DNA of 64,000 nt from Actinomycetota bacterium (GTDB lineage Bacteria > Actinomycetota > Geothermincolia > Geothermincolales > RBG-13-55-18), in contig JACIXD010000010.1 of assembly GCA_014360645.1 (NCBI GenBank), forward strand, positions 1 to 64,000, read 5' to 3'. Numbering within the stretch: position 1 is the stretch's first letter; each line of letters starts with the position of its first letter. Below are positions 41,792 through 55,451 of the stretch, piece by piece. The position numbers were made by a program, and so were the translations under genes. Below the pieces are notes generated by a model. The model was not told where the DNA came from. It was given only the letters and a program-made list of their open reading frames with translations, and searched no databases.

Positions 41792-43132
41792 TCAGGGGCT
41801 GACGTAATCCTTGCCGATGACCAGGATGACATCGGCGTCATAGGTGATGGCCACGTCTTCGTCTTCCTCTATCACGTATGCCGCGTTGGGGTTGAGATCG
41901 CGAGCCACCACCCTCGCCTCCGCCTCGTGCCCGGAGGAATAATAGACCGTGGTGGCCTGGTAGGGGTTGACGGTGTTTCCAACGGTGATGTCGGCATAGC
42001 CCTTGTCCTTCAGCCTCTCGGCGACCTTCGAGGCCATGCCCTCCCAGCGTACGCCGTTGAGCACCGCCAGGTTGACGCGGGAGCGTTCCACCTCGGACTC
42101 GGGGATGTTCGTCGCCTTCTGCTCGTTCGCCGCCAGCTGTTCTTCGGGGGTCATGCTGCTGCAGTAGAGCTCGATGTTGCGGAAGATACGCGCGGTCTCC
42201 TGCTGGTCGAGGATATAATACCAGGGCTGGCCGGCCGCGGGCACGGGATCGTCTCCCGGCAGGGTCACGAACTCCACGTCCTCCACCCGCATACCCTGCA
42301 GCGCCTCGGCCAGGGTGAAGATGAGATCCGGCTCCAGGGTTGTGTCCAGGTATCTCACCGCCGCGTCAAGGATCCTCAGCAGGGACTGCAGGTCCTTTAC
42401 CTCCACCACCTTCTTCATCATCGCCGAGAGGAACCTCTTCTGGTTCTCGATGCGGTCGAGGTCCCCCCGCGGCAGGTTGCGGCTGCGCACCAGGATGAGG
42501 GCGCTCTCGCCGTTGAGGAATACGTCCCCTTTGGGCAGGGTGCCCACCTTGGGGTCGAGGATGGGGTAGTCGAGGTGGAGCACCACTCCCCCCACGGCAT
42601 CCACGATGTTCTTGAAGGCCTCGAAATCCACCTCCGCGTAGCCATTGATCTGCAGGCCCGAGATCTCCTCCACGACATCTATGGCCCCCGCGGGGCCCTT
42701 GAGGGAATGGGCGGCGTTTATCTTCTCCGTGCCGTATCCGGGGATGGTGACGCGGGTGTCGCGCGGTATGGAGACCAGCACCGCCTTCTTCTTCTCCACG
42801 TTGACCGAGGCGAGGATCATGACGTCCGAGCGCGTATATCCCTCTTCGCCGGGGACGCTGCCGCGGTCGATGCCGATGATAAGGACGTTCAGGTTCTTGG
42901 AAGGGTCGATCCATTTCTTGATGCGCTCGCTGACGCCCGGTGCCTGCTCCTCGGTGATGGTGGTCTCCTTCCAGCGCATCCTGAAATAATGCTTGCCCGC
43001 CCATATCTTCACCACGTCGAGGTTGAGGATGCCGACCACCAGGCCCCCCACCAGCAGCAGGCAGGCGAGCACCTTGATGACGGCCTGCCTCTTGCGGCGT
43101 TTCCTTATCTTCAGCCTTTCCTGTCTCTTCAT
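41792..43132 (-). CDS. LytR-CpsA-Psr (LCP) family cell-wall ligase with LytR_C domain
   Basis: About 446 residues from ATG 43132. A very basic N-terminus (KRQERLKIRKRRKRQ) precedes one membrane segment (17-36). The LCP catalytic domain (about 80-270) has LIIGIDRG, YTRSDVMILASVN, VSIPRDTRVTIPG, INAAHSLKGP and NLPRGDLDRIENQKRF, covering the Asp/Arg residues that bind the polyprenyl-phosphate substrate. A C-terminal LytR_C domain follows (about 320-440). LCP proteins attach teichoic acid, arabinogalactan or other glycopolymers to peptidoglycan, which fits a Gram-positive-type envelope. The frame is open back to 43309 but without family similarity. Confidence 0.93.
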   Translation of the reverse strand: MKRQERLKIRKRRKRQAVIKVLACLLLVGGLVVGILNLDVVKIWAGKHYFRMRWKETTITEEQAPGVSERIKKWIDPSKNLNVLIIGIDRGSVPGEEGYTRSDVMILASVNVEKKKAVLVSIPRDTRVTIPGYGTEKINAAHSLKGPAGAIDVVEEISGLQINGYAEVDFEAFKNIVDAVGGVVLHLDYPILDPKVGTLPKGDVFLNGESALILVRSRNLPRGDLDRIENQKRFLSAMMKKVVEVKDLQSLLRILDAAVRYLDTTLEPDLIFTLAEALQGMRVEDVEFVTLPGDDPVPAAGQPWYYILDQQETARIFRNIELYCSSMTPEEQLAANEQKATNIPESEVERSRVNLAVLNGVRWEGMASKVAERLKDKGYADITVGNTVNPYQATTVYYSSGHEAEARVVARDLNPNAAYVIEEDEDVAITYDADVILVIGKDYVSP

Positions 43133-43342
43133 TTGAAGGTTTGACGCCCTCCCGCCTCCGGCTGTTCCGAACGCGACATGCGTATCATCCGTATTATATA
43201 GGCATCGCGGCCGCGCGCGGAAACCACCCGCACCTTTCCGAGAAGGCGCAGAAGAGCTCCGCGGCTCACGGGCCGCGAGCCTTACGGCTTGAAGACCTTT
43301 CCATGACAAGGCCTCCGATGGAAAGCGCTGGTCCCGCGCGCC

Positions 43343-43576
43343 CTACCGTGGGTCCTCCAGGTCGAACTCCTCAGTTGCCAGCCCTTCCTCAAGGGAGCCG
43401 ATGAGCTTCTCCACCCTGGAGCTCGCCTCCGCCAGCCGCTGCCTGGCCTCCCGGATGAGCCCCACCCCCTCCTCGAAGAGGCGCAGTCCCTCCTCCAGCT
43501 CCAGGTCCTCCTTCTCGAGAGTGGCGGTTATGCGCTCAAGCCTGTCCATCATCTCTTTGAAGGTCATCTCACCCAT
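43343..43576 (-). CDS. xseB: Exodeoxyribonuclease VII small subunit
   Basis: A 77-residue protein of two helices: FKEMMDRLERITATLEKEDLELEEGLRLFEEGVGLIREAR is the XseB pattern (shown here in part: LEKEDLELEEGLRLFEEG). Several XseB subunits assemble with XseA and are needed for single-strand exonuclease activity. ATG 43576 follows GGTGAGG. It lies 291 bp downstream of xseA on the same strand, a larger gap than usual. Confidence 0.93.
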   Translation of the reverse strand: MGEMTFKEMMDRLERITATLEKEDLELEEGLRLFEEGVGLIREARQRLAEASSRVEKLIGSLEEGLATEEFDLEDPR

Positions 43577-43867
43577 ATCATCCTCACCCCGCGATCCCTC
43601 ATCTCATCCTCGCTTATCCGTCATCCCGCAACGCCGCATATACGTCCGCGCCGCGGGGCAATGCCCAGGCGGCGCCCGCTCTCCAGCAGTACCCCGGCGC
43701 TCGCGCCCCTCGCCCACCTCGCGATCCGGTTTGCCGGTCCGCGGAACGCAGGTATCCCGGATGCCGGATTTGCCGGCTCCGCCGCCCCGTGCCCCGGCTC
43801 CAGGCCGCCCGCCATATTTTCCCCGCCGCTTCCATATGCCTCGCGGGGCACAAGGCCGGCGCGGCGC

Positions 43868-45295
43868 TCATCCCTCCGGCGATCTCTCCTCCGCGACCTC
43901 GGGCCTCACCTCCCTCACCTCGCCGCGTATGCGCCCGTGGTGCAGGCGGATATCCAGGCCGTCGCCGATCTCCACCGCCGCGCTGTCCGTGAGCGGCCTC
44001 GTCTCTCCTTCCCTGGTGACGATGGCGTAGCCACGGGAAAGCACCGCCAGTGGGCTGAGGTCGTCGAGGCGGGAGCCGACGAGGCGCAGTCTTCCCTCGG
44101 TGCGGGAGATCATGTCCACAGCCGCGGCCTTCAGTTCGCCGGCCCGCCGTGAGGGCTCCGTTTCCCGCCACCGCACCCAGGCACGCAAGGCGGCGGAGAG
44201 CTTGCGACATGCATCCTCGATCCTCGAGGGCAGGGCGCGGTACTCCCGCGGGAAGCGCGCCAGTGAGAGCGCCGCCGCCTCCACCGCGCGTTCCCTTCTC
44301 TCAAGACATGAGCGAGCCGACGAGATCAAGCCTTCCTCCGCCTCCGCGAGCCGCTGTGCCGCCTGGTTCACCAGCATGGCCGGGTCGGAGAAAGGGCGCC
44401 TGGTGAGCAGGGAACCCAGGCCGCGTTCCAGCCGGTGCAGCCCCCGCCTCAGGCCGGAGGCCAGGGCCAGCTCCCTCTGCCGGAGCAGGGCCAGCACCTC
44501 CTCCCGCGAGGGCACCACCGCCTCCGCCGCCCCCGTGGGCGTGCTGGCCCGGAAATCCGCCGCCAGGTCGCTCAGGGTGATGTCCGGCTCGTGCCCCACC
44601 CCGGTGACCACGGGGATGTGGGAGGCCCTTATGGCCCGCGCCACCTCCTCGCTGTTGAAGGGTTTGAGGTCCTCCAGGGAGCCGCCGCCCCGCGCCAGGA
44701 TGAGCACCTCGGCGGCCTGGGCCCGGTTGAAGAGGTCGATGGCCCCCACGATGTCCCCGACCGCCTCGTCTCCCTGCACCCTTACCCCGCGGATGAGCAA
44801 CCTCGTGCCCGGAAAGCGCCGCTTGAGGTTGATCACCACGTCGCGCACCGCCGCTCCCTCCAGGGAGGTGATGAGCCCCACGGTGTGGGGATAGGCGGGG
44901 AGCGGCCTCTTCAGGGCCTCGTCGAAAAGCCCTTCCGCGGCGAGCTTGCGCATGAGGAGGAGGAACTCCCTGCGCAGCCTTCCCTCTCCTGACTCCCTGG
45001 CCTCCAGGACGTTGAGCCGGAACTGGCCCCGCCGCACATAGACGCCCAGCCGCCCCCTGGCGAGGAGCGACATCCCCTCCCGCAGCTCGCAGTCCATCCC
45101 CGCCAGGGCCTCGCGGAAGATGATGCAGGAGAGGGAGGCATCCTCGTCGGAGAGGCTGAAGAAACTGTAATTGGGATAGGGACGCAGGTTGGAGACCTCG
45201 CCCTCCACCCACAGGACCAGCCCCTGCAGCAGGCCGTCCGCCAGGCGGTTGACCTCCCCCACCGTGTAGACGCGCTCTTCCTCTTTCGTGCCCAT
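43868..45295 (-). CDS. xseA: Exodeoxyribonuclease VII large subunit
   Basis: A 475-residue XseA. The N-terminal OB-fold domain (about 10-110) starts YTVGEVNRLADGLL and contains VEGEVSNLRPYPNYSFFSL; the nuclease domain follows with PAYPHTVGLITSLEGAAVRD, LILARGGGSLEDLKPFN and VTGVGHEPDITLSDLAADFR; the C-terminal part is a long coiled coil (about 280-400) and a short closing domain with LSRGYAIV. It degrades single-stranded DNA with XseB. ATG 45295 lies nine bases after a TATAAT box and has no Shine-Dalgarno, so the mRNA is probably leaderless. Confidence 0.95.
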   Translation of the reverse strand: MGTKEEERVYTVGEVNRLADGLLQGLVLWVEGEVSNLRPYPNYSFFSLSDEDASLSCIIFREALAGMDCELREGMSLLARGRLGVYVRRGQFRLNVLEARESGEGRLRREFLLLMRKLAAEGLFDEALKRPLPAYPHTVGLITSLEGAAVRDVVINLKRRFPGTRLLIRGVRVQGDEAVGDIVGAIDLFNRAQAAEVLILARGGGSLEDLKPFNSEEVARAIRASHIPVVTGVGHEPDITLSDLAADFRASTPTGAAEAVVPSREEVLALLRQRELALASGLRRGLHRLERGLGSLLTRRPFSDPAMLVNQAAQRLAEAEEGLISSARSCLERRERAVEAAALSLARFPREYRALPSRIEDACRKLSAALRAWVRWRETEPSRRAGELKAAAVDMISRTEGRLRLVGSRLDDLSPLAVLSRGYAIVTREGETRPLTDSAAVEIGDGLDIRLHHGRIRGEVREVRPEVAEERSPEG

Positions 45296-45304
45296 GACAG
45301 GGAC

Positions 45305-45310
45305 ATTATA
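45305..45310 (-). promoter_or_regulatory. -10 box immediately upstream of xseA
   Basis: TATAAT on the minus strand, separated by nine bases from the ATG at 45295; the transcript would begin at or within a few bases of the start codon. Confidence 0.5.
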
Positions 45311-45482
45311 TCCGGCGGCGGTGCCATCTCCTCTCCTACGCCCGCCGAGAAGACCCCGGGAAGGAAAAACAACCGTGAGGTTGAAATACATGATATAGAG
45401 TGCGAGAAGGCCAGAAGAGACCATATGTAGTGTTTACGTCCCCCGGCAGGGTGCCGTGGGCTTGCGATAAAGGGGGTTCGGC

Positions 45483-45998
45483 TTGGAGATACTGGCCTTG
45501 CTCCTCCTGGGCCTCATAGCCATGCTCGCCATCGTCCCCCCCATCATCCGCGGCAAGATCGAGGAGTCGCCCCTGGCCACCACCCAGAGCTTCCAGCGCA
45601 GCATGGAGGAGATCGCCCATTCCATAGAGTCGGGAAGTCTGCGTTCCGCCCGAGCTTATGAGGCCAGGTTCGGCGGAGGCAGCCGCGCGTATGCTGAGGA
45701 TACGGAGCGCAAGCCCTTTCCCCGCCCCGCTCCTGGCCGGCGCAGGGCGAGCGCCGCTACGAGGAGAAACCGCGTCTTTTCCCTGCTCACTCTGCTGGCC
45801 TTCTCGTGGGGCGCCGCCACCCTCTTCAGCGGCAAAGCATGGTGCCTGGCCCTTTTCGTCTCCTCCTCCATCATGCTCATAGTGTTCTGGCTGCTCACCA
45901 TCATCGTCCCCTACCTCGCCGCCCCCGCCCGCACCCGCCGCCGCGAAGGCGGCAGGGGGCGCCATCTCGAGCGTCACCCCGACCGCCGTGCCGTATAG
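45483..45998 (+). CDS. Hypothetical membrane protein, 171 residues
   Basis: The start is TTG at 45483, six bases after AAAGGGGG. A hydrophobic segment at 2-20 is followed by an amphipathic region (SFQRSMEEIAHSIESGSLR) and a basic linker (RRRASAATRRNR), then two further hydrophobic segments at about 98-145. The C-terminus is Arg-rich. The topology suggests three membrane passes with basic loops inside. A related layout is common in actinobacterial membrane proteins of unknown function; no family is named. It is divergent from xseA. Confidence 0.7.
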   Translation: MEILALLLLGLIAMLAIVPPIIRGKIEESPLATTQSFQRSMEEIAHSIESGSLRSARAYEARFGGGSRAYAEDTERKPFPRPAPGRRRASAATRRNRVFSLLTLLAFSWGAATLFSGKAWCLALFVSSSIMLIVFWLLTIIVPYLAAPARTRRREGGRGRHLERHPDRRAV

Positions 45999-46108
45999 GT
46001 GCCTGCCGAGCGCGCGCTTTCCGGCGCGGTTCCAGATATAACATCCGTTGGTAACGTCATAGATTTTTCTCGTATAGGTGCCTGCCGGGCGCGCGCTTTC
46101 CGGCGCGG
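45992..46108. repeat. 38-bp direct repeat, spacing 79 bp
   Basis: CGTATAGGTGCCTGCC followed by (A/G)GCGCGCGCTTTCCGGCGCGG occurs at 45992-46029 and 46071-46108 with a single mismatch near the centre. Each copy can fold as a G+C-rich hairpin. The first copy overlaps the last codons and stop of the preceding gene. The rest, to 46255, holds no gene. Confidence 0.8.
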
Positions 46109-46255: not shown

Positions 46256-46543
46256 TCAGCGTATCACGCCGATCCTCATCAGCAGGAGCACCATGAAAAG
46301 ATGGAACAGGAAAAAAGCCGCCATGGCCCCAAAGGACTTTCTCCCGTAGCGGGGACGGAAATAGAGAAAGAACATGGCCGACACGAACCCCATGACCCCC
46401 AGGACAAACAGGACCGTGATGGCGGCGGGAACCCGTTCTCCGTGTGCACGCATATGCGCGAACATGTACCCCGGAACGATGGCGGTGGCCGCGGAAGAGA
46501 CGATGACCAGCATCTGCGGCCAGGTGGGCAGTTTGTCCTTCAT
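46256..46543 (-). CDS. Small three-pass membrane protein
   Basis: A 95-residue hydrophobic protein with membrane segments at about 10-29, 37-57 and 70-92 (FGAMAAFFLFHLFMVLLLMRIG) and short loops, one with the basic motif FRPRYGRKS. ATG 46543 follows AGGAGGTGAAGGAT. The start lies 6 bp after the stop of the M23 protein on the same strand, so it is the third gene of the pseudokinase operon. No family is recognised. Confidence 0.75.
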   Translation of the reverse strand: MKDKLPTWPQMLVIVSSAATAIVPGYMFAHMRAHGERVPAAITVLFVLGVMGFVSAMFFLYFRPRYGRKSFGAMAAFFLFHLFMVLLLMRIGVIR

Positions 46544-46548
46544 ATCCT

Positions 46549-48486
46549 TCACCTCCTGTACATGCCATCCCCCATGCGCGGGGGGCGGACCTCCAGATTC
46601 CACAAGCTCTCCCGTACCTCGCCGCGCCTGCCGAGCAGGCGCGGCAGTAGGCGTGAGCAGCCCTCCTTAAACCCCTTGCTCAATGACTTCCCGAGCAGCG
46701 CCTTGAGGAACTCGCTGTTCAGGGCCAGCCTGCCTCCGCTGGCGCGAGAGAGGACCCCGACCAGCCCCTGTCCGTTTCCGGCCAGGTTGATGGCGCCGAC
46801 CAGGGCTCCGCCTCCGAAACAGAGGAGCGACTCCGCCAGGGAAGGCAGGTTCCCCGTCGCCATGCGCACGGCCGCGTCGCCCAGGGTAGCGGTGCATCCG
46901 CACATGCACACGTAGGCCAGACGGTGGCTCAGCGACACCGCCATCTCTCCCGCGTATGCCGCGGCCGCCGCCGCCTCGCCGGAGACAAGAGACCCTCCCG
47001 AGGAGAGGAATCCCGCCGCCAGCGCCTGGGCCGCCTCGGAGGAGAGAAAGCCGGTGGTCACCAGCTTTCCCAGGCCTCCCGTCAGCCCGCCCACTAAGAA
47101 GGAAGCCAGCAGACCAAGGGGATGGATGTCTTTTCCTGTGGCGGCACAGAAAACGACATAGATGGCGGCCTCCGCGCAACCGTAGGACAGAAAGGTCTTG
47201 CCGAATCCCAGCAGGCCGACCTGGCTCCAACCACTGGCGATGAAGGGAGCCAGGTATGAGGCCGTCAGGCAGGTCCCGGCGGCGGCCATCCCGATGGTCA
47301 GCGAGCCAAGAAAACATCCCAGGAAGGAGAAAGAATCGCCCGATGCGAAGGTGTAGTACACCGCGTAACCGATGGCCGCGACGCTTCCCACCACCGCGGC
47401 CGTCACCGCCGCGGCCAGGGACAGGCCCAGGATGACGGCTATGCCCGCCACCGCCAGGCACACGATGGCTGCCGCCGCCAGCGCGGCCAGCACCGCTTGC
47501 ACCACGCGATTGGACAGAGCTGCCCTGGCGACCTCGGCCACGCCCCGGCAGAAAGGGACCAGCCAGGGCTCCACGCAGGCGCGGTAGAAAGCCTGCACGG
47601 CTCGTCCCAGGGGTCCGGCGACCCGGCAGGCCAGCCTCCAGGCGGCACCTCCCGCCTTCCCCGCCGCGTGCCATACGGCCTTGAAGGCCCCGCCCAAGGC
47701 CCTTCCCCCCGCGGAAAACCCCCTCCCGAGCCATTCGAAGTAGCCTCCCGCCCCGTGGCGCCGCATGAAAGTCCGCAGCGCTTCCACATCTTCCCAGGGC
47801 CCGAGGAAAAGACATTCAGAGGGGTCGAGCACGCGTCCCTCGAGAAAGGGCAGGGGATCCACGGCGATGCCGTTCATGAACAACCCGAAATGCAGGTGGG
47901 ATCCCTGGCTGGAGCGGTCCCTTGAGCCGTCGCTGGTCCCCAGCACCTGACCCGCGGCAAGGCGCTGTCCCCTCCGCACCAGGATGGCGCCCAGGGACAC
48001 GTAGGTGGTCTTGATGCACGCCCCGTGGGCGACGCTCACGCAGGGGCCCACCGGGGTGCCGCCGGCGAAGGTGACCGTGCCCGCGGCGGCGGACCGCACC
48101 TCGCTCCCCCTTGCGAGGGCTATGTCTATCCCGGAATGTCCACCCGCTCCGTAAGGTCCGGCGGCGGGGGCGAAGGGGCAGGTGATCTCCCCCCTCGCCG
48201 GCCAGTCAAAGGAGGGTGCCTCCTCCCCGGCCGCCACGGCCGGGGAGGGCGGCGGTTGGAAGGAGAAAAAGAGGATGGTAAGGAGGGTGATGATGAGGAG
48301 GGTAAGGGCAGACGCCCGGCTTACGAAGGGTGCCTTGCCGCCCCGCGTGCCGAGGGCACGGGTGGAAACGGGTCCGGAGGCGGCGTCGCGCCACTCCCGC
48401 GAGATAACGCGCTTGGCCGGGGTCATGCGCGATACACCGCCGCTTTCCGTCCCCTCGGGGCGGTTCTCCTTCCCTGTGGAAACCAA
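46549..48486 (-). CDS. M23-type endopeptidase fused to a polytopic membrane domain
   Basis: A 645-residue protein. A membrane segment at about 60-77 exports the following LytM/M23 domain (about 95-205), in which the zinc ligands and catalytic residues are intact: HSGID (H117, D121) and HLHFG (H197, H199). Residues about 235-330 form an amphipathic helical region and 330-530 hold several Gly/Ala-rich membrane segments (for example AAAAIVCLAVAGIAVILGLS), an unusual continuation for an M23 enzyme. It probably cuts or senses peptidoglycan crosslinks. TTG 48486 directly overlaps the upstream TGA and has GGAGG eight bases before it, so it is translationally coupled to the pseudokinase gene; Met 48426 is an alternative. 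Confidence 0.85.
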   Translation of the reverse strand: MVSTGKENRPEGTESGGVSRMTPAKRVISREWRDAASGPVSTRALGTRGGKAPFVSRASALTLLIITLLTILFFSFQPPPSPAVAAGEEAPSFDWPARGEITCPFAPAAGPYGAGGHSGIDIALARGSEVRSAAAGTVTFAGGTPVGPCVSVAHGACIKTTYVSLGAILVRRGQRLAAGQVLGTSDGSRDRSSQGSHLHFGLFMNGIAVDPLPFLEGRVLDPSECLFLGPWEDVEALRTFMRRHGAGGYFEWLGRGFSAGGRALGGAFKAVWHAAGKAGGAAWRLACRVAGPLGRAVQAFYRACVEPWLVPFCRGVAEVARAALSNRVVQAVLAALAAAAIVCLAVAGIAVILGLSLAAAVTAAVVGSVAAIGYAVYYTFASGDSFSFLGCFLGSLTIGMAAAGTCLTASYLAPFIASGWSQVGLLGFGKTFLSYGCAEAAIYVVFCAATGKDIHPLGLLASFLVGGLTGGLGKLVTTGFLSSEAAQALAAGFLSSGGSLVSGEAAAAAAYAGEMAVSLSHRLAYVCMCGCTATLGDAAVRMATGNLPSLAESLLCFGGGALVGAINLAGNGQGLVGVLSRASGGRLALNSEFLKALLGKSLSKGFKEGCSRLLPRLLGRRGEVRESLWNLEVRPPRMGDGMYRR

Positions 48487-50133
48487 TCAATATACCTCCA
48501 ACGTGACCGAGGCGGTGGAGCTCGATCCCCTGGAATCGAAAACCTCCAGGACCACCTGAAAACGGGCGGGTATGACGGGGGGGTCGAAGACGTGCTGCGC
48601 GGTCATCCCCTCGAGGACCGTCCCGTCACCGCACCGCCAGACGTAGCGGACGATATCTCCGTCGGGGTCGAAAGAGCGCCCTGCATCCATGCTCACGCAG
48701 AGGGGAGCCGCGCCGCTGCGCGGAGAAACGGCGAGCACGGCGTGAGGAGGAGAGGGAGCGCGCTCGGGGGCGTCCGGCATGCGCATCCCCTGCGGGGTGG
48801 AGGTAGGGGCCTGCTCCACGGAAGGTCCGGAACGGGAGGCGGTGGGGTCCCCTCCCGGGGGCGGCGCGCCGGGAGATCCCTCCTCCATGCCGGATGAGGA
48901 GGGACCGGCGGTGCCGTCCGCCTCGCTGCCCCCCGTCTGGTTGCCCTCCCTGCCGGCGCTCACCACCAGCACCACCTTCTCCCCCCGCGTCAGCAGCGAT
49001 CCCTCGGCTGGCTCCTGCGCCGCCACCCGCCCCGCGGACCACAGGCGCGACGGCGCGCTGCGGCACTCGTATTCCAGGCCCAGCGAATCCAGGAGCCCCC
49101 GGGCCTCCTCCAGGGCCATGCCCTGCAGGTCGGGGAGGGTCACCTTTTCCTCTTCCTCCACGGGCGCGGCATTTTCCCGCTCCCCTCTTCCGGAGAGCAT
49201 CCCGGCCGCGGCCGCAAAGCACACCCATAGAGCGACTCCCCCCAGGACGACCAGGAAGAGGTTGCGCAACACGCTGCTTCTCTTCCTCTCTTCGCCGGGT
49301 ACGAGGGGCCGCGCCACCATCCCCTCCTTGAGAAAGGAAAGCCCGCCGGGGGCCGGGGTCTCGCCCGTCCCGCCCTCCTCTTTAGAACCGCTGCCCTGAA
49401 GACCGCGCAGCACGCTCGCCTCCAGCTCCTCCAGGAGAAGGCGCGGCGAGGAAGGCCGGTTCCTCGGAAGGGGGTCCGTGGCGGTATCGAGCAGGCTTCG
49501 CAAGCGTTCCGAGACCGCTTCGCGCGGCAGTATGCCGCGGATCATGGCCGCCAGGGCATAGACGTCCGAGGTCCTCAGCCCCTCCACGCCGCCGTCCGTC
49601 TCGGGAGCGCGGTAGAGGGATACGCGCTGTGCGAGGCGCGGCTCGCTCTCCTCCAGTATCCAGCCGTATCCCACCCGGACGAGCTTCACAGCTCCCCCAT
49701 CGCATACCACCACCTGGCCGGGGTTGAGGCCGAGGTAGAAGAGCCCCCTGCCGTAGGACTCCGCCAGCGCCTCCACCGCCGCGCGCGCTATCTCCACCAC
49801 CTGCGAGGGCGGCAGCTCGCCGCAGTCATCCAGAACATCGAGGAGTGGCGCCCCCTCCACGTTCTCGCCCACCATGAAAAAGGGACCGCCCTCTCCTATT
49901 CGCCCCCATGCATAGAGGACCGCGATATGCGCGCCGCGCACCGAGACGGCGGCCTCGAGGATCTCCTCCACCCGTTCCGCGGCCAGCCCAGCGGGCAGAC
50001 CCTCCGCCTCCAGGACGTCCACCGAGACCAGAGTCCCCAGCTCCGCGTCCTCGGCCTCGTAGGTCGAAAGATACCGGCCCGAGGCCAGCCTTCTCTTCAC
50101 CACATACCTCTCCGCGAGCATCTCTCCGATCAT
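48487..50133 (-). CDS. PASTA- and PKD-domain protein-kinase-like receptor, predicted pseudokinase
   Basis: A 548-residue protein with the PknB layout: cytoplasmic kinase-like domain (1-245), linker, one membrane segment (290-312), one PASTA domain (331-394), a Pro/Ser/Gly-rich linker and a C-terminal PKD-like beta domain (463-548, with FDPDGDIVRYVWRCGDG). Kinase landmarks are degenerate: the glycine loop is LASGRYLSTYEAED, the ATP-anchoring Lys position reads VSVDVLE (Asp39), the HRDLKPxN loop reads YLGLNPGQ and DFG reads RVG (153-155). The APE-equivalent (RAPE, 175-178) and SDVYALAAM are kept, so the fold is present but catalysis is not expected. It is first in an operon with the M23 protein. 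Confidence 0.88.
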   Translation of the reverse strand: MIGEMLAERYVVKRRLASGRYLSTYEAEDAELGTLVSVDVLEAEGLPAGLAAERVEEILEAAVSVRGAHIAVLYAWGRIGEGGPFFMVGENVEGAPLLDVLDDCGELPPSQVVEIARAAVEALAESYGRGLFYLGLNPGQVVVCDGGAVKLVRVGYGWILEESEPRLAQRVSLYRAPETDGGVEGLRTSDVYALAAMIRGILPREAVSERLRSLLDTATDPLPRNRPSSPRLLLEELEASVLRGLQGSGSKEEGGTGETPAPGGLSFLKEGMVARPLVPGEERKRSSVLRNLFLVVLGGVALWVCFAAAAGMLSGRGERENAAPVEEEEKVTLPDLQGMALEEARGLLDSLGLEYECRSAPSRLWSAGRVAAQEPAEGSLLTRGEKVVLVVSAGREGNQTGGSEADGTAGPSSSGMEEGSPGAPPPGGDPTASRSGPSVEQAPTSTPQGMRMPDAPERAPSPPHAVLAVSPRSGAAPLCVSMDAGRSFDPDGDIVRYVWRCGDGTVLEGMTAQHVFDPPVIPARFQVVLEVFDSRGSSSTASVTLEVY

Positions 50134-50205
50134 CGCCCACCTCGCGTTAAATTAATCATGTGCATTAACTTAATAAAGTTATATTACTTTGTCAAGACAT
50201 ATCTT
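50134..50205 (-). promoter_or_regulatory. AT-rich promoter region of the pseudokinase operon
   Basis: A 70-bp AT-rich island with a perfect TTGACA on the minus strand (50190-50195) and, 16-17 bases on, TTAAGTT as a weak -10. GAGGTG lies close before the ATG at 50133. Confidence 0.5.
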
Positions 50206-50683: not shown

Positions 50684-50751
50684 ACGGATAGGACGGCGTG
50701 CGGCACCCGGGCGAGAAGGCCGGGGAAAGACCGCGAAACCGGGGGAGCGCG

Positions 50752-51615
50752 ATGAAGGTCTGTCTCAACGGCGCGATAGTGGATGAGCGGGAGGCCTCGC
50801 TGCCCGTGAACGACCGCGGCACCCTCTTCGGAGACGGCCTCTTCGAGACCCTGCGCGCCTACCGGGGAAAGCCCTTCCGGCTGGAGCGCCACCTGCAACG
50901 GCTGCGGGAGGGATGCCGCCATCTGCGCCTCTCTTACGACGCGCCGCCACAGGAGATCGGCGAGGCCATCGGCGAGCTCTACCGCATCAACGTGGTGAGC
51001 GGCGACGCCTACGTGCGCGTCACCGTGACCGGCGGCCGTTTCGACGGCTCCCGGACGCTGGAGAGATCCTCCCGCCCCAACGTCTTCATCCTGGTCAAGC
51101 CCTTCGAGGGCTATCCCGAGGAGTTCTACCAGCGCGGAATGCGCGTGATCATCAGCCGCATAAGGGTCAACGAGACCTCTCCGCTGAGCGGTATCAAGAG
51201 CTGCAACTACCTGGACAACATCCTGCGCAAGCAGGAGGCGCGGGATCGCGGCGCGGACGATGCCGTCACCCTGAACGGCGCCGGCTTCCTGGCGGAGGGG
51301 ACATCCGCCAACCTCTTCCTGGTCAAGCGAGGCAAGGTGCTGACCCCCGAGCTCTCCTGCGGCATCCTGCCCGGTATCACCCGCGAGGTGGTGCTGGAGC
51401 TGTGCGAGGACTACGGCATCCCGTGCGAAACGGGCACCTATCCTCCCGAGGAGTTGATGGCCGCGGACGAGGCCTTCTTCAGCGTGAGCACCGGGGAGAT
51501 AGTCCCCATCGCGGAAGTGGACGGGAGCGCGATAGGGTTCCGCTGTCCCGGCCCCCTGACCGCGCGCATCGCGGACGCCTACCGCGCCCTGGTAGCCCGA
51601 GAACTCTCCCTCTGA
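50752..51615 (+). CDS. pabC: Aminodeoxychorismate lyase / class IV aminotransferase
   Basis: A 287-residue fold-type IV PLP enzyme beginning VCLNGAIVDEREASLPVNDR, with FGDGLFETLRAYRG, the PLP-binding Lys149 in SGIKSCNYLDNIL and the phosphate-binding LAEGTSANLFLVK. Branched-chain and D-amino acid aminotransferases share the fold; the nearby pabB and pabA make 4-amino-4-deoxychorismate lyase, a folate step giving p-aminobenzoate, the more likely role. ATG 50752 follows GGGGGAGCGCG. The last base of its TGA is the first base of the ISL3 terminal repeat. Confidence 0.85.
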   Translation: MKVCLNGAIVDEREASLPVNDRGTLFGDGLFETLRAYRGKPFRLERHLQRLREGCRHLRLSYDAPPQEIGEAIGELYRINVVSGDAYVRVTVTGGRFDGSRTLERSSRPNVFILVKPFEGYPEEFYQRGMRVIISRIRVNETSPLSGIKSCNYLDNILRKQEARDRGADDAVTLNGAGFLAEGTSANLFLVKRGKVLTPELSCGILPGITREVVLELCEDYGIPCETGTYPPEELMAADEAFFSVSTGEIVPIAEVDGSAIGFRCPGPLTARIADAYRALVARELSL

Positions 51616-51644
51616 TGGGGTCAGCCCCGGACATGGGACATCTT
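51615..51644 (+). repeat. Left terminal inverted repeat of the ISL3 element
   Basis: ATGGGGTCAGCCCCGGACAT and the following GGGACATCTT; inverse of 53049-53078 with one mismatch at the inner end. Confidence 0.9.
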
Positions 51645-51689
51645 CCGCCAGAAAAGATCCTCGAACTCCACTTATTAGAGTCGATGGGT

Positions 51690-52850
51690 CGTCTCCGGCA
51701 TCGGAAGATCCCCCACACACGGTAGAACGCCATTCGGAAGGCGGCAACCGTCCCGCACCCATAGGCCTTCTGGCTCACCACCTTGGCTTTGGGGTTCATC
51801 CCCTCGATCCAGGCGTCGGTGATCTTCTCCTTGAAGTGGTTGAACATCTCTTCCTTCCGTCTCTTAATCATCCAGGCGAAGTCCCGTATCGGTTTCAGCC
51901 TCGCGTGGGCACCTACCTGAGCCGGAGGTCAAGGTACTTCTCGGCGTTCCTCTTGTAGGTGTAATCCCAAAAGCGGCGGGCCGCCTGCTTCAGGATGTAG
52001 GCAAGGCCGATCTTCAGGTTCAGCTTCTCTGAGTCGGACAATCTCCCCCTCTGCCCAGGGGTGAGGTTCCCCCGGGTTCTTGAGTCAGGCACAGCGCGTC
52101 TTTACCAAAATCTCCAGGGCTGTCTTTTTGAGCTCCCGCGCCTTCTCGTGCCTCACCCGGTCCACCGCGTCCATGAGATGGGCTATGCCATGAGGCGGAA
52201 CTTCTGGGGAGCTTCTAGAAGACCATGACCGCCTGAGGCAGCCTTTCCTTTTCTATCGCCACTATGCAGGGCCGCCACATGTAAAGTCAGACCGCTCTTA
52301 TCACCAGGCGTCGCTTCTGTCCCCATTCCTCGAGGAAGGCCCGCAAGGCCGCCTTGTCCCTGCACTTCCCGCGCCACAGGAGCCTCGCCCGAGCAAGGTC
52401 GTAGATCATGGTCATGTACTTATGCCTTTTATTCTGGTTATCTCGTCTATGCCTGTGGCGATCGAGGAGGCGGCATCGCGGCGTTCGAGCCCTAGCCCAC
52501 CGCGCTCCTCAAGGCCGCCCTGACCGTTTCCCAGTGGACCGGGAAAAGCCTCGCCACCTCCTACCATGCGAGGGTCCTCGCGAAGGCGGCCAGCAGGACC
52601 GTGAACGGCATGGAAAGAGGGCTCTTGCCTTGAGACCAGGGCACGGCCTCCACCTAGATGCCGCACTTCTTGCATAAGCCCCTCCTGGGGCTCTAGGTAA
52701 GGGTCGCCGGCATGCCCCATATCTGCACGTGGCGCCGGCTTCTCCCCTTGAGGGTTTCGTATCCATCGTTTTCCCGGGAAATCCCCTTGCTCTTTCCAGG
52801 GATTTTTTGGGCGTACGAAGAACAGCGATTTCCGCAACCATCCCGCCGCC
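51690..52850 (-). pseudogene. ISL3-family transposase pseudogene
   Basis: Minus-strand fragments in consistent order match the ISL3 plan: HVQIWGMPATLT-stop-SPRRGLCKKCGI-stop-VEAVPW (zinc-finger-like N-terminus), PFTVLLAAFARTLAW-stop-EVARLF, YMWRPCIVAIEKERLPQAV, LMDAVDRVRHEKAREL, LNLKIGLAYILKQAARRFWD and finally ITDAWIEGMNPKAKVV followed by KAYGCGTVAAFRMAFYRVWG. At least four in-frame TAG codons, one TGA and one or more frameshifts (near 52210 and 51905) interrupt it, so it cannot make a functional transposase. Confidence 0.85.
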
Positions 52851-53048
52851 TTTCTCCCTGACCCCTTCCGCCCCGTGACCTTTGAGCCCCGGCGTCCGGC
52901 GCATCAGATGGGGTATGCGCATTTCTCCCTCCTGGATGCTGGCGCGATTACGACAAGCAGAATCAACGGTGAGAATGCCTTACGGCAAGGCTTTTTCGGG
53001 TTCACCTACTTATGGGTTTGTGAGGACCAGATTCTCGGAGGTGATCGC

Positions 53049-53078
53049 GAGATGTCCCATGTCCGGGGCTGACCCCAT
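53049..53078 (+). repeat. Right terminal inverted repeat of the ISL3 element
   Basis: GAGATGTCCCATGTCCGGGG then CTGACCCCAT. Identical to the solo copy at 307-336. Confidence 0.9.
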
Positions 53079-54478
53079 CAGGAGAGGGTGGCGAAGATGG
53101 CCTTGCCCTTGTCCAGGGTCTCCTGGTACTCGTCCTCGGGGACGGAATCGGCCACGATGCCCCCGCCCACCTGGAAGTAGGCGGCATCGCCCTTGACGAT
53201 GACGGTGCGTATGGCGATGTTGAGGTCGAAATCGCCATTGTATCCCAGGTAACCGATGCTCCCCGTGTACACGCTGCGCGCCGTGGGCTCCAGCTCGTCG
53301 ATGATCTCCATGGAGCGTATCTTGGGGGCCCCGGTGATGGAGCCGCCGGGGAAGCTCGCTTTGAGCAGGTCCACCACGTCCCGGCCCTCGTGCAGTTCCC
53401 CCACCACCGTGGACACCAGGTGGTGCACGGTGGCGTAGTGCTCGATCACCGCATGCTCTTCCACCTGCACGCTGCCGTACTCGCACACCCGGCCGAGGTC
53501 GTTGCGCTCCAGGTCCACGATCATGGAGAGCTCGGCGCGGTCCTTGGCGCTGGCCTGGAGCTCCTCCGCCAGCCTCCGGTCCTCCTCCGGGTCGGAGGAG
53601 CGGCGGCGGGTTCCCTTGATGGGGCGCGTCTCCACCCTCCTGCCGGTCCCCTTCAGGAAACGCTCCGGCGAGGAGGAGAGGACCTGGCCCTCCACCATGT
53701 TGAAGTAGGCGGCGAAGGGCGCGGCGTTCAGGCGGCGCAGGCGGCGGTAGAGCGTCCAGGGGTGCTCGCGCAGAGGGGCTCGGAAGCGCTGGGAGAGATT
53801 GGCCTGGTAAATATCGCCAGCAAGGATGTATTCCTTCACCCTGCGCACCGCCTCAAGGTACTCCTCGCGGGTGAAGTTGGAGACGAAGCTCGCCTCCCGC
53901 GCGCCGTGCGGGGAGGGATAGTCCGGCGGCTCGCTCTCCAGCGCCAGCCGCGCTTCCCGCAGCACCGCGCCGGGATCCTCGGGGTGGACGGCGGCCAGCC
54001 AGGTCCTCTCCTCGCGGTAGTCGTGGGCGAGCACGCGGTCATAGAAGGCGAAACACAGCTCCGGCAGCCCCAGGTCGTCCACGGCCGTCTCCGGCAGCTT
54101 CTCGATGTGCCGCCCCAACTCGTAGGCCAGGTACCCCATGCCCCCGCCCAGAAAAGGCGGGAGGCCCGGCGGCATCTCCTCGAGGCGGAACTCGGACAGG
54201 GCGGAACGCAGCGCCTCGAATGGGTTCTCCTCGCTATGCCGGACCTCTCTCCCCCTCCTCCACCAGGTGCACCTCCTGCCCCGCGTGGTCAGCACCAGAT
54301 GCGGGTCGAAGCCGATGAAAGAGTAGCGTCCCAGCCGCTCCATGGCCAGGCTGGAATCCAGAAAACAGGCGTACGGCTTCGCCGCCAGCCGGTGGAAGAC
54401 GGCCTCCATGGCCGGCGCGTCCTCCAGCTCGGCCACCTCAAGCCTCAAGGGTACTGCCTTCTCCCTTGCCCCGCTCAT
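53078..54478 (-). CDS. pabB: Aminodeoxychorismate synthase component I (PabB)
   Basis: A 466-residue chorismate-utilising enzyme. The N-terminal domain has [20 protein letters not shown]; the chorismate-binding domain has [55 protein letters not shown] and [19 protein letters not shown]. The PIKGT motif with its Lys is the PabB hallmark that distinguishes it from anthranilate synthase TrpE, which has Ala there. It makes 4-amino-4-deoxychorismate with PabA. The stop codon overlaps the first base of the ISL3 right end. ATG 54478 follows GGGGAG. Confidence 0.93.
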
Positions 54479-54554
54479 GGTCTCTCACTCCCCGGTATAT
54501 AAAAGAACCCATGCCCGACCGGCTCTTCTCTCTCCAGCCTTCCGGCAACCGCCT

Positions 54555-55133
54555 TCATCTGCACACCTCCAGAAAATTACGGAGCAGGAACAGTCCCTCC
54601 GGGGTCATGAAAGACTCGGGATGGAACTGGATCCCCTCCACCGGATACTCGCGGTGGCGCACCCCCATGATCAAGCCGTCCTCGGTACGGGCGCTCACCT
54701 CCAGGCAGGCGGGGAAGCCCTCCTCGAGGATGGCCAGGGAGTGGTAGCGGGCCGCCTCCATGGGGCTGGGCAGCCCGGCGAATACGCCGCGCCGGTCGTG
54801 GTATATGCGCGAGGTCTTGCCGTGCATGACATAGGGAGCGCGGTCCACCCTGCCCCCGTACACCTCCCCGATGCACTGGTGTCCCAGGCACACCCCCAGG
54901 ACGGGTATGCGGGGGCCGAACTCGCGGATGATGTCCTTGGAGAGCCCGGCGTCGCGCGGCGCCTTGGGCCCGGGCGAGATGACGATGCCCGCCGGCCCCA
55001 GCCTCTCCACATCCTCCAGGGTGGTGTGGTCGTTGCGGAAGACCACCAGGTCCGCCCCGAGGATGCCCAGGAACTGCACCAGGTTATAGGTGAAGGAGTC
55101 GTAGTTGTCGATCATCAGGATCCTGCCGCCCAT
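54555..55133 (-). CDS. pabA: Glutamine amidotransferase subunit (PabA/TrpG)
   Basis: A 192-residue class I amidotransferase: N-terminal [16 protein letters not shown], oxyanion SPGPKAP, nucleophile Cys82 in [11 protein letters not shown] and the His/Glu of the triad in [11 protein letters not shown]. It supplies ammonia from glutamine to PabB, encoded 76 bp downstream, and could also serve TrpE. ATG 55133 follows GAGGAAGGTTCC. A terminator-like hairpin sits between the promoter and this start (55155-55183), so expression may be set by attenuation. Confidence 0.93.
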
Positions 55134-55154
55134 GGAACCTTCCTCTCCCTCAAA

Positions 55155-55183
55155 CGAAAAGACCCAGCCTCTCCACGGCTGGG
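55155..55183 (-). terminator. Terminator/attenuator hairpin in the pabA leader
   Basis: Minus strand CCCAGCC-GTGGAGA-GGCTGGG followed by TCTTTTCGTTT: a seven-pair stem plus U-rich tail, 22 bases upstream of pabA. Placed inside the leader it would act as an attenuator. Confidence 0.7.
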
Positions 55184-55226
55184 TGCCGGCCCCTCGCCCG
55201 GGCCGCCTGACATACCGATCGAGGGG

Positions 55227-55232
55227 ATTATA
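55227..55232 (-). promoter_or_regulatory. Extended -10 promoter of pabA-pabB
   Basis: Minus strand TGC-TATAAT; the transcript would start near 55220, about 87 bases upstream of the pabA ATG, leaving room for the hairpin at 55155-55183. Confidence 0.55.
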
Positions 55233-55451
55233 GCACAGCGGGAAAGGGGGAGGCGCCCCGGTGGAGGAAGTGGCCGCAGGGAAGTCGTGACCTCGTCCGT
55301 GCCACCGCACCCGCAGAGGACCACCCGTGGCACCGGGTCGGGACCCGGGACGCGATCCCGCACGGGGTCCCGCGCACGCGATCCGTACCCTCTTATATGG
55401 TATGTTGATGATGGGCATGATGGAGGACGGCGGACGCACGGAGGGGAGGTA

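Follow-up and report, generated by a model that had tools for sequence, protein, structure and literature searches.

A predicted operon of a PASTA/PKD pseudokinase and a polytopic M23 endopeptidase in Candidatus Geothermincolales, with a candidate structured RNA at the gene junction

Three consecutive envelope genes

The window analyzed here is a 64,000-nucleotide stretch of genomic DNA from an uncultured member of the Actinomycetota belonging to the order Candidatus Geothermincolales, which includes Candidatus Solincola. The nearest relatives of the source genome (G000) are G001 and G002 (Candidatus Solincola daggyaiensis), which belong to the same genus. Three genes, here termed K, M and S, lie consecutively on the minus strand, with the following features:

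50167-50195, minus strand: promoter-like element of K (-35 TTGACA, 17 bases, -10 TAAGTT, AT-rich island), read by eye in the upstream sequences of 17 genomes of the order
48487-50133, minus strand: K, receptor-type pseudokinase of 548 amino acids (Pfam, motif table, AlphaFold, Foldseek)
about 49414-50133, minus strand: pseudokinase domain of K (amino acids 1-240)
49198-49278, minus strand: transmembrane helix of K (amino acids 286-312)
48958-49143, minus strand: PASTA domain of K (amino acids 331-392)
48496-48750, minus strand: PKD domain of K (amino acids 462-546)
48494-48499, minus strand: Shine-Dalgarno-like GGAGGT for M within the last codons of K, seen in 13/13 genomes compared
46549-48486, minus strand: M, predicted M23 metallo-endopeptidase of 645 amino acids (Pfam, alignment, AlphaFold)
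48288-48473, minus strand: candidate structured RNA at the start of M (covariation, covariance search), with a closing helix (GAAGG/CCTTC and CCGCCCC/GGGGCGG), a covarying central hairpin and a GGGC-N4-GCCC hairpin
48223-48247, minus strand: additional hairpin (CTCCCCGGCC/GGCCGGGGAG) showing compensatory changes, also within this conserved stretch
amino acids 55-75 of M, minus strand: signal/anchor segment
47839-48210, minus strand: M23 domain of M (amino acids 93-216)
amino acids 249-324 of M, minus strand: long helix
46591-47508, minus strand: polytopic domain of M (about amino acids 327-632)
46256-46543, minus strand: S, about 95 amino acids with three hydrophobic segments and a loop motif Y-x-R-P-x-Y-G (ORF, hydropathy, position in relatives, alignment)

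The sequence-only reading of this DNA had treated K, M and S as one transcription unit, and our results support this. It had also placed the start of M across the stop codon of K; the two genes do not overlap, and the TTG start of M directly follows the TGA of K, in the same frame in this genome. Its 6-bp distance from M to S is correct as a start offset, with five bases lying between the stop codon of M and the ATG of S at 46543. Upstream of K, an AT-rich island, a TTGACA, a 17-base spacer and a TAnnnT-type hexamer could be read by eye throughout the family. The automatic scan did not flag this element, as its -10 hexamer carries three of the six consensus bases and the limit of the scan is four.

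The junction between K and M is short in nearly all genomes, and the start codon of M, accompanied by GGAGGT, lies 10 or 13 bases before the candidate RNA in 13/13 genomes. In G002 (locus L032), about 140 bases separate the two genes; this spacer resembles a partial repeat of the 3′ end of K and retains both GGAGGT and the TTG start for M. A fusion of K and M through stop-codon readthrough was rejected, since the frames of the two genes differ between genomes.

K, a receptor-type pseudokinase

The PASTA (PF03793; 41.3 bits, cut-off 23.2) and PKD_4 (PF18911; 44.6 bits, cut-off 27) domains of K both pass their Pfam cut-offs, which supports the receptor-like topology with an added PKD domain proposed previously. 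The HMM search suggested as a check on the kinase domain gave a Pkinase score of 23.3 bits, under the cut-off of 31.7, as is expected for a degenerate kinase. Against the Stk1/PknB equivalog model PknB_PASTA_kin (NCBIfam NF033483), K scores 90 bits, far below the cut-off of 450. A motif table referenced to the active PknB of the same genome gives VSVD (D39), YLGLNPGQ and RVG for K where PknB has VAVK, HRDIKPHN and DFG, while the APE motif and the SDVYALA helix are retained, exactly as had been read from the sequence. The hallmarks of active Hanks-type kinases (the VAIK Lys, HRD Asp and DFG Asp) are all lost in the 17/17 K orthologues with readable motifs, which bears out the assignment of K as a pseudokinase.

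The Lys, the HRD Asp, the Lys and Asn that follow it and the DFG Asp are replaced in nearly all orthologues, and the glycine loop of K is degraded. The alignment has a gap after the SDVYALA helix and before the last one, at the expected site of helix G, which thus appears to have been deleted. AlphaFold predicts the kinase fold with confidence (pLDDT about 88-96), PASTA and PKD being modelled apart, and the best Foldseek matches are PknA, PknB/Stk1 and PknI. This well-kept fold, together with the existence of pseudokinases that have acquired new chemistry, such as SelO and SidJ (PMC12599244), could be taken to mean that K retains an unusual catalytic activity through other residues. We consider this highly improbable, however, given the near-universal replacement of the catalytic residues, the apparent loss of helix G and the degraded glycine loop. 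Substitution rates by region indicate that the pseudokinase, PASTA and PKD domains are under purifying selection and the linkers far less so, and the pseudokinase is therefore maintained rather than decaying. K is found at full length, with the same motifs lost, in independent genera.

PASTA Ser/Thr kinases (PknB/Stk1/PrkC) share with K the order of kinase fold, membrane helix and PASTA, and PknA, PknB/Stk1 and PknI are its nearest solved relatives by both sequence and fold. Unlike them, K lacks the catalytic residues and apparently helix G, carries a single PASTA domain and has gained a PKD domain. The PASTA/PKD part varies within the order: K has PASTA and no PKD in one family (G016 and G017), and neither domain in another (G015). 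Only the pseudokinase and membrane helix stay constant, which favours a docking role inside the cell combined with variable sensing outside.

Among described pseudokinases, the actinobacterial ActPs1 group has lost all three motifs, about 60% of its members are without helix G, and it commonly carries a PQQ domain (PMC12599244). Compared with this description, K resembles ActPs1 in being actinobacterial, in the loss of the three motifs and in the apparent loss of helix G; a Pfam search of K found no PQQ domain. A review of bacterial pseudokinase families sets out seven families and has PASTA only in a cited title; going by these descriptions, K does not obviously belong to any of the seven. 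An anti-phage defence role was rejected, as the PADLOC matches of K are to generic kinase models (PD-T4-6 and the like) and M and S have none.

The genome also encodes an active PknB with FHA, phosphatase-, FtsW- and PBP-like neighbours, the last three named by eye. In Actinomycetota, the slot before PknB is usually occupied by PknA. Here, the gene directly before the active PknB encodes another PASTA protein, one whose kinase domain is degenerate (L048:5703-7085, on contig C5 of the source genome); its HRD reads HGS, its DFG reads DPG and its APE is lost, and similar copies occur in other genomes of the order. In G012 and G014 (L156 and L157), a kinase-like gene beside PknB carries the motifs HGGIATNN and DVG and groups with the PknB of these genomes in the tree.

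M, S and the junction RNA

The M23 assignment of M is secure in Pfam (Peptidase_M23, PF01551; 74.4 bits, cut-off 28.7), and the intact zinc site noted previously stands, its ligands H117, D121, H197 and H199 (HxxxD/HxH) being invariant in 27 relatives. AlphaFold places the C-terminal part as a helix bundle behind the long helix. M shares the M23 fold with the M23/LytM endopeptidases DipM, ShyA and EnvC, which are its nearest solved structures; it differs from them in its polytopic domain, for which no Pfam family was matched in any of 27 members. Fold searches of the PDB and of viral structures with M returned matches consistent with the M23 part. A phage origin of M was rejected, because the PHROG and viral fold matches fall on the M23 part and the gene is single-copy across the class.

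No family was matched for S. The forms of S in the order and in the rest of the class are probably related, judging from their profile alignment (hhalign probability 80.6%, E 1.3e-5), although a similar composition can be enough to align three-helix membrane proteins.

At the start of M, two almost invariant complementary blocks flank a variable stretch that occurs in five lengths, and the distance from one block to the other is divisible by three in 13/13 genomes. In the 30-pair structure proposed for this region, 91.8% of cells are paired, compared with 45-57% when the partners are slid, and double changes occur in 34 cells, where shuffles give 13.9 ± 2.7; a single alignment of 13 related sequences served both to derive the structure and to score it. 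For the further hairpin at 48223-48247 the corresponding counts are 5 and 1.5 ± 0.9. In lineage pairs from four genera, synonymous divergence over codons 1-100 of M is mostly 0.05-0.3 (0.41 in one pair), compared with typically 0.3-0.7 later in the gene; in control genes, too, synonymous divergence is somewhat reduced toward the 5′ end (LCP, 0.20-0.34). No such 5′ depression was seen in M of another family of the class, where K is absent. Codon-preserving permutation supports extra RNA folding unevenly, with z ranging from +0.55 to -4.16 and negative in 12/13 cases. A covariance model found one strong copy per genome, always at the K-M junction, in 13/15 genomes of the family, and did not find the RNA in genus g3 or in the other two families of the order. 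From these comparisons, an RNA structure at the junction is likely to be real, and we regard it as a candidate for a previously undescribed RNA present in most of one family.

A dispersed riboswitch-like RNA was rejected, since a search of 30 genomes gave, beyond the junction copy, only weak matches (E 0.1 and above). A known riboswitch was likewise rejected: among 4227 Rfam families none matched at the gathering score around the operon, where weak matches have E values of 1-5, and the window yields only a tRNA.

The region could alternatively be a non-coding leader, with M starting later and its first ~50 codons not being translated into protein, a reading that would be compatible with any interpretation of K and M. 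It is favoured by the nonsynonymous divergence over codons 1-50, which is about equal to the synonymous divergence, and by the AlphaFold pLDDT below 50 for residues 1-57. However, the block spacing is always a multiple of three across its five lengths and the frame stays open, the geometry of the start codon and GGAGGT is fixed, and G000 has no in-frame ATG, GTG or TTG between the RNA and the signal segment. We therefore think a leader distinctly unlikely, and take the RNA as lying within the reading frame of M.

Distribution, possible role and surroundings of the operon

The sequence-only reading, which had inferred a peptidoglycan-sensing receptor controlling, or controlled by, a membrane-tethered endopeptidase, is supported in part. 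It would have been refuted by an absence of the gene trio from relatives, and such an absence was not observed. K is present and adjoins M in 18/18 genomes of the order (in G007 the locus is divided between two contigs, one of which still has the end of K next to M), and S follows M wherever the contig extends far enough; the full trio occurs throughout the family. A profile of K scores at least 166 bits within the order (at least 270 for full-length copies) and at most 127 elsewhere in 397 genomes, where the 12 best readable matches are active kinases. The polytopic domain of M has a different range: its profile was found in 31/31 sampled genomes of the class, partially in G024, where the gene is broken, and convincingly in 0/366 other genomes of the phylum sample. 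Candidates for the domain outside the class were rejected as marginal, comprising matches with E 0.005-0.007 in two genomes and two weak single-sequence matches.

In other members of the class, a small S-like membrane gene follows M in 11 loci, with no K. M and S thus persist without K outside the order, which indicates that M does not generally depend on K. In the tree, K forms one clade (100/100) on a long stem, with branching that broadly follows the families. The simplest history would be one in which K was added, at the base of the order, to an M-S pair that already existed, the alternative being a loss of K in the other orders.

The occurrence of M-S without K could also mean that K and M are merely co-expressed envelope proteins with separate jobs. 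Set against this are the order-wide adjacency of the two genes, the conserved promoter before K and the position of the RNA exactly at the K-M junction, which point to tuned joint expression, and we judge separate jobs to be quite unlikely.

We tentatively favour a reading, held at somewhat under an even chance, in which K, M and S form a single operon that serves the controlled cleavage of peptidoglycan, with K placing or licensing M and the RNA setting its dose. The PASTA and PKD domains of K would lie outside the cell and could bind cell-wall material or M itself, while the pseudokinase inside may serve as a non-catalytic docking platform for the active PASTA kinase PknB or for the growth machinery. 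In this way K could place M, along with S, where the wall is growing, or license it there. The RNA might then set the amount of hydrolase relative to K, via termination-reinitiation coupling or ribosome pausing; this is the least certain step. The more specific proposal that the dead PASTA/PKD receptor physically gates the polytopic M23 hydrolase, with the RNA in the frame of the hydrolase setting its dose against that of the receptor, is doubtful. Overall, the K-M operon and its junction RNA suggest a wall-control circuit that has so far not been described.

K might instead act mainly on the PASTA-kinase network, dampening or scaffolding PknB by ligand sharing or mixed dimers, with the operon shared with M only tying expression to wall turnover. 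The genome has both an active PknB and, beside it, a second PASTA pseudokinase, such that dead PASTA receptors seem to be recurrent here, and the loss of helix G largely spares the N-lobe, which serves known bacterial kinases as a dimer surface (PMC12599244). On the other hand, the 18/18 adjacency of K and M with a close junction exceeds what co-regulation usually needs, and K has one PASTA domain plus an added PKD compared with four PASTA domains in PknB. We consider a role mainly on PknB to be unlikely, and retain controlled cleavage by M as the working interpretation.

By analogy, the closest precedents for the K-M pair would be the docking of FhaA by MviN and the control of CwlA by PrkC. 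In Mycobacterium tuberculosis, the MviN pseudokinase (ActPs3) is a dead kinase that docks FhaA, recruited by a phosphorylated C-terminal tail, and regulates wall synthesis (PMC12599244, PMC11898655). FHA proteins are also encoded in the present genome, but MviN is a flippase fusion, whereas the partner gene of K encodes a hydrolase. No conserved Thr/Ser was found between the pseudokinase and the membrane in K orthologues, which may be a further difference from MviN and argues against MviN-style phospho-docking in that region. In Clostridioides difficile, PASTA-kinase signalling through PrkC governs the peptidoglycan hydrolase CwlA (PMC8262956); that kinase is active and phosphorylates an enzyme of the NlpC/P60 type, whereas the present pair combines a dead kinase with an M23 enzyme.

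The K-M arrangement had been put forward as one not known to be characterized, and a literature search, with most subscription journals outside its reach, found no published description of it. The same search returned no papers on PASTA combined with PKD or on polytopic M23 proteins. If the proposed reading is true, the locus would clearly exemplify a PASTA pseudokinase that spans the membrane and is linked to a wall hydrolase through conserved gene order, and would offer a test of the idea that PASTA receptors can work independently of phosphorylation. Two more elements not described before would be the polytopic domain of M and the junction RNA; through the latter, control over the dose of an enzyme that could be lethal becomes open to testing.

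Several further features were observed around the operon. Beyond S, two similar stretches of about 30 bases (GGTGCCTGCCG.GCGCGCGCTTTCCGGCGCGG) were noted by eye at 46009-46108. A possible small membrane gene on the plus strand (45483-45998) lies opposite S and xseA and separates the K-M-S operon from xseA. Genes for an LCP protein and the exonuclease VII large subunit follow on this side (41792-45424), and aminotransferase IV, chorismate-binding and glutamine amidotransferase genes lie on the other (50698-55373); the positions of both groups around K-M-S are kept in most of the family.
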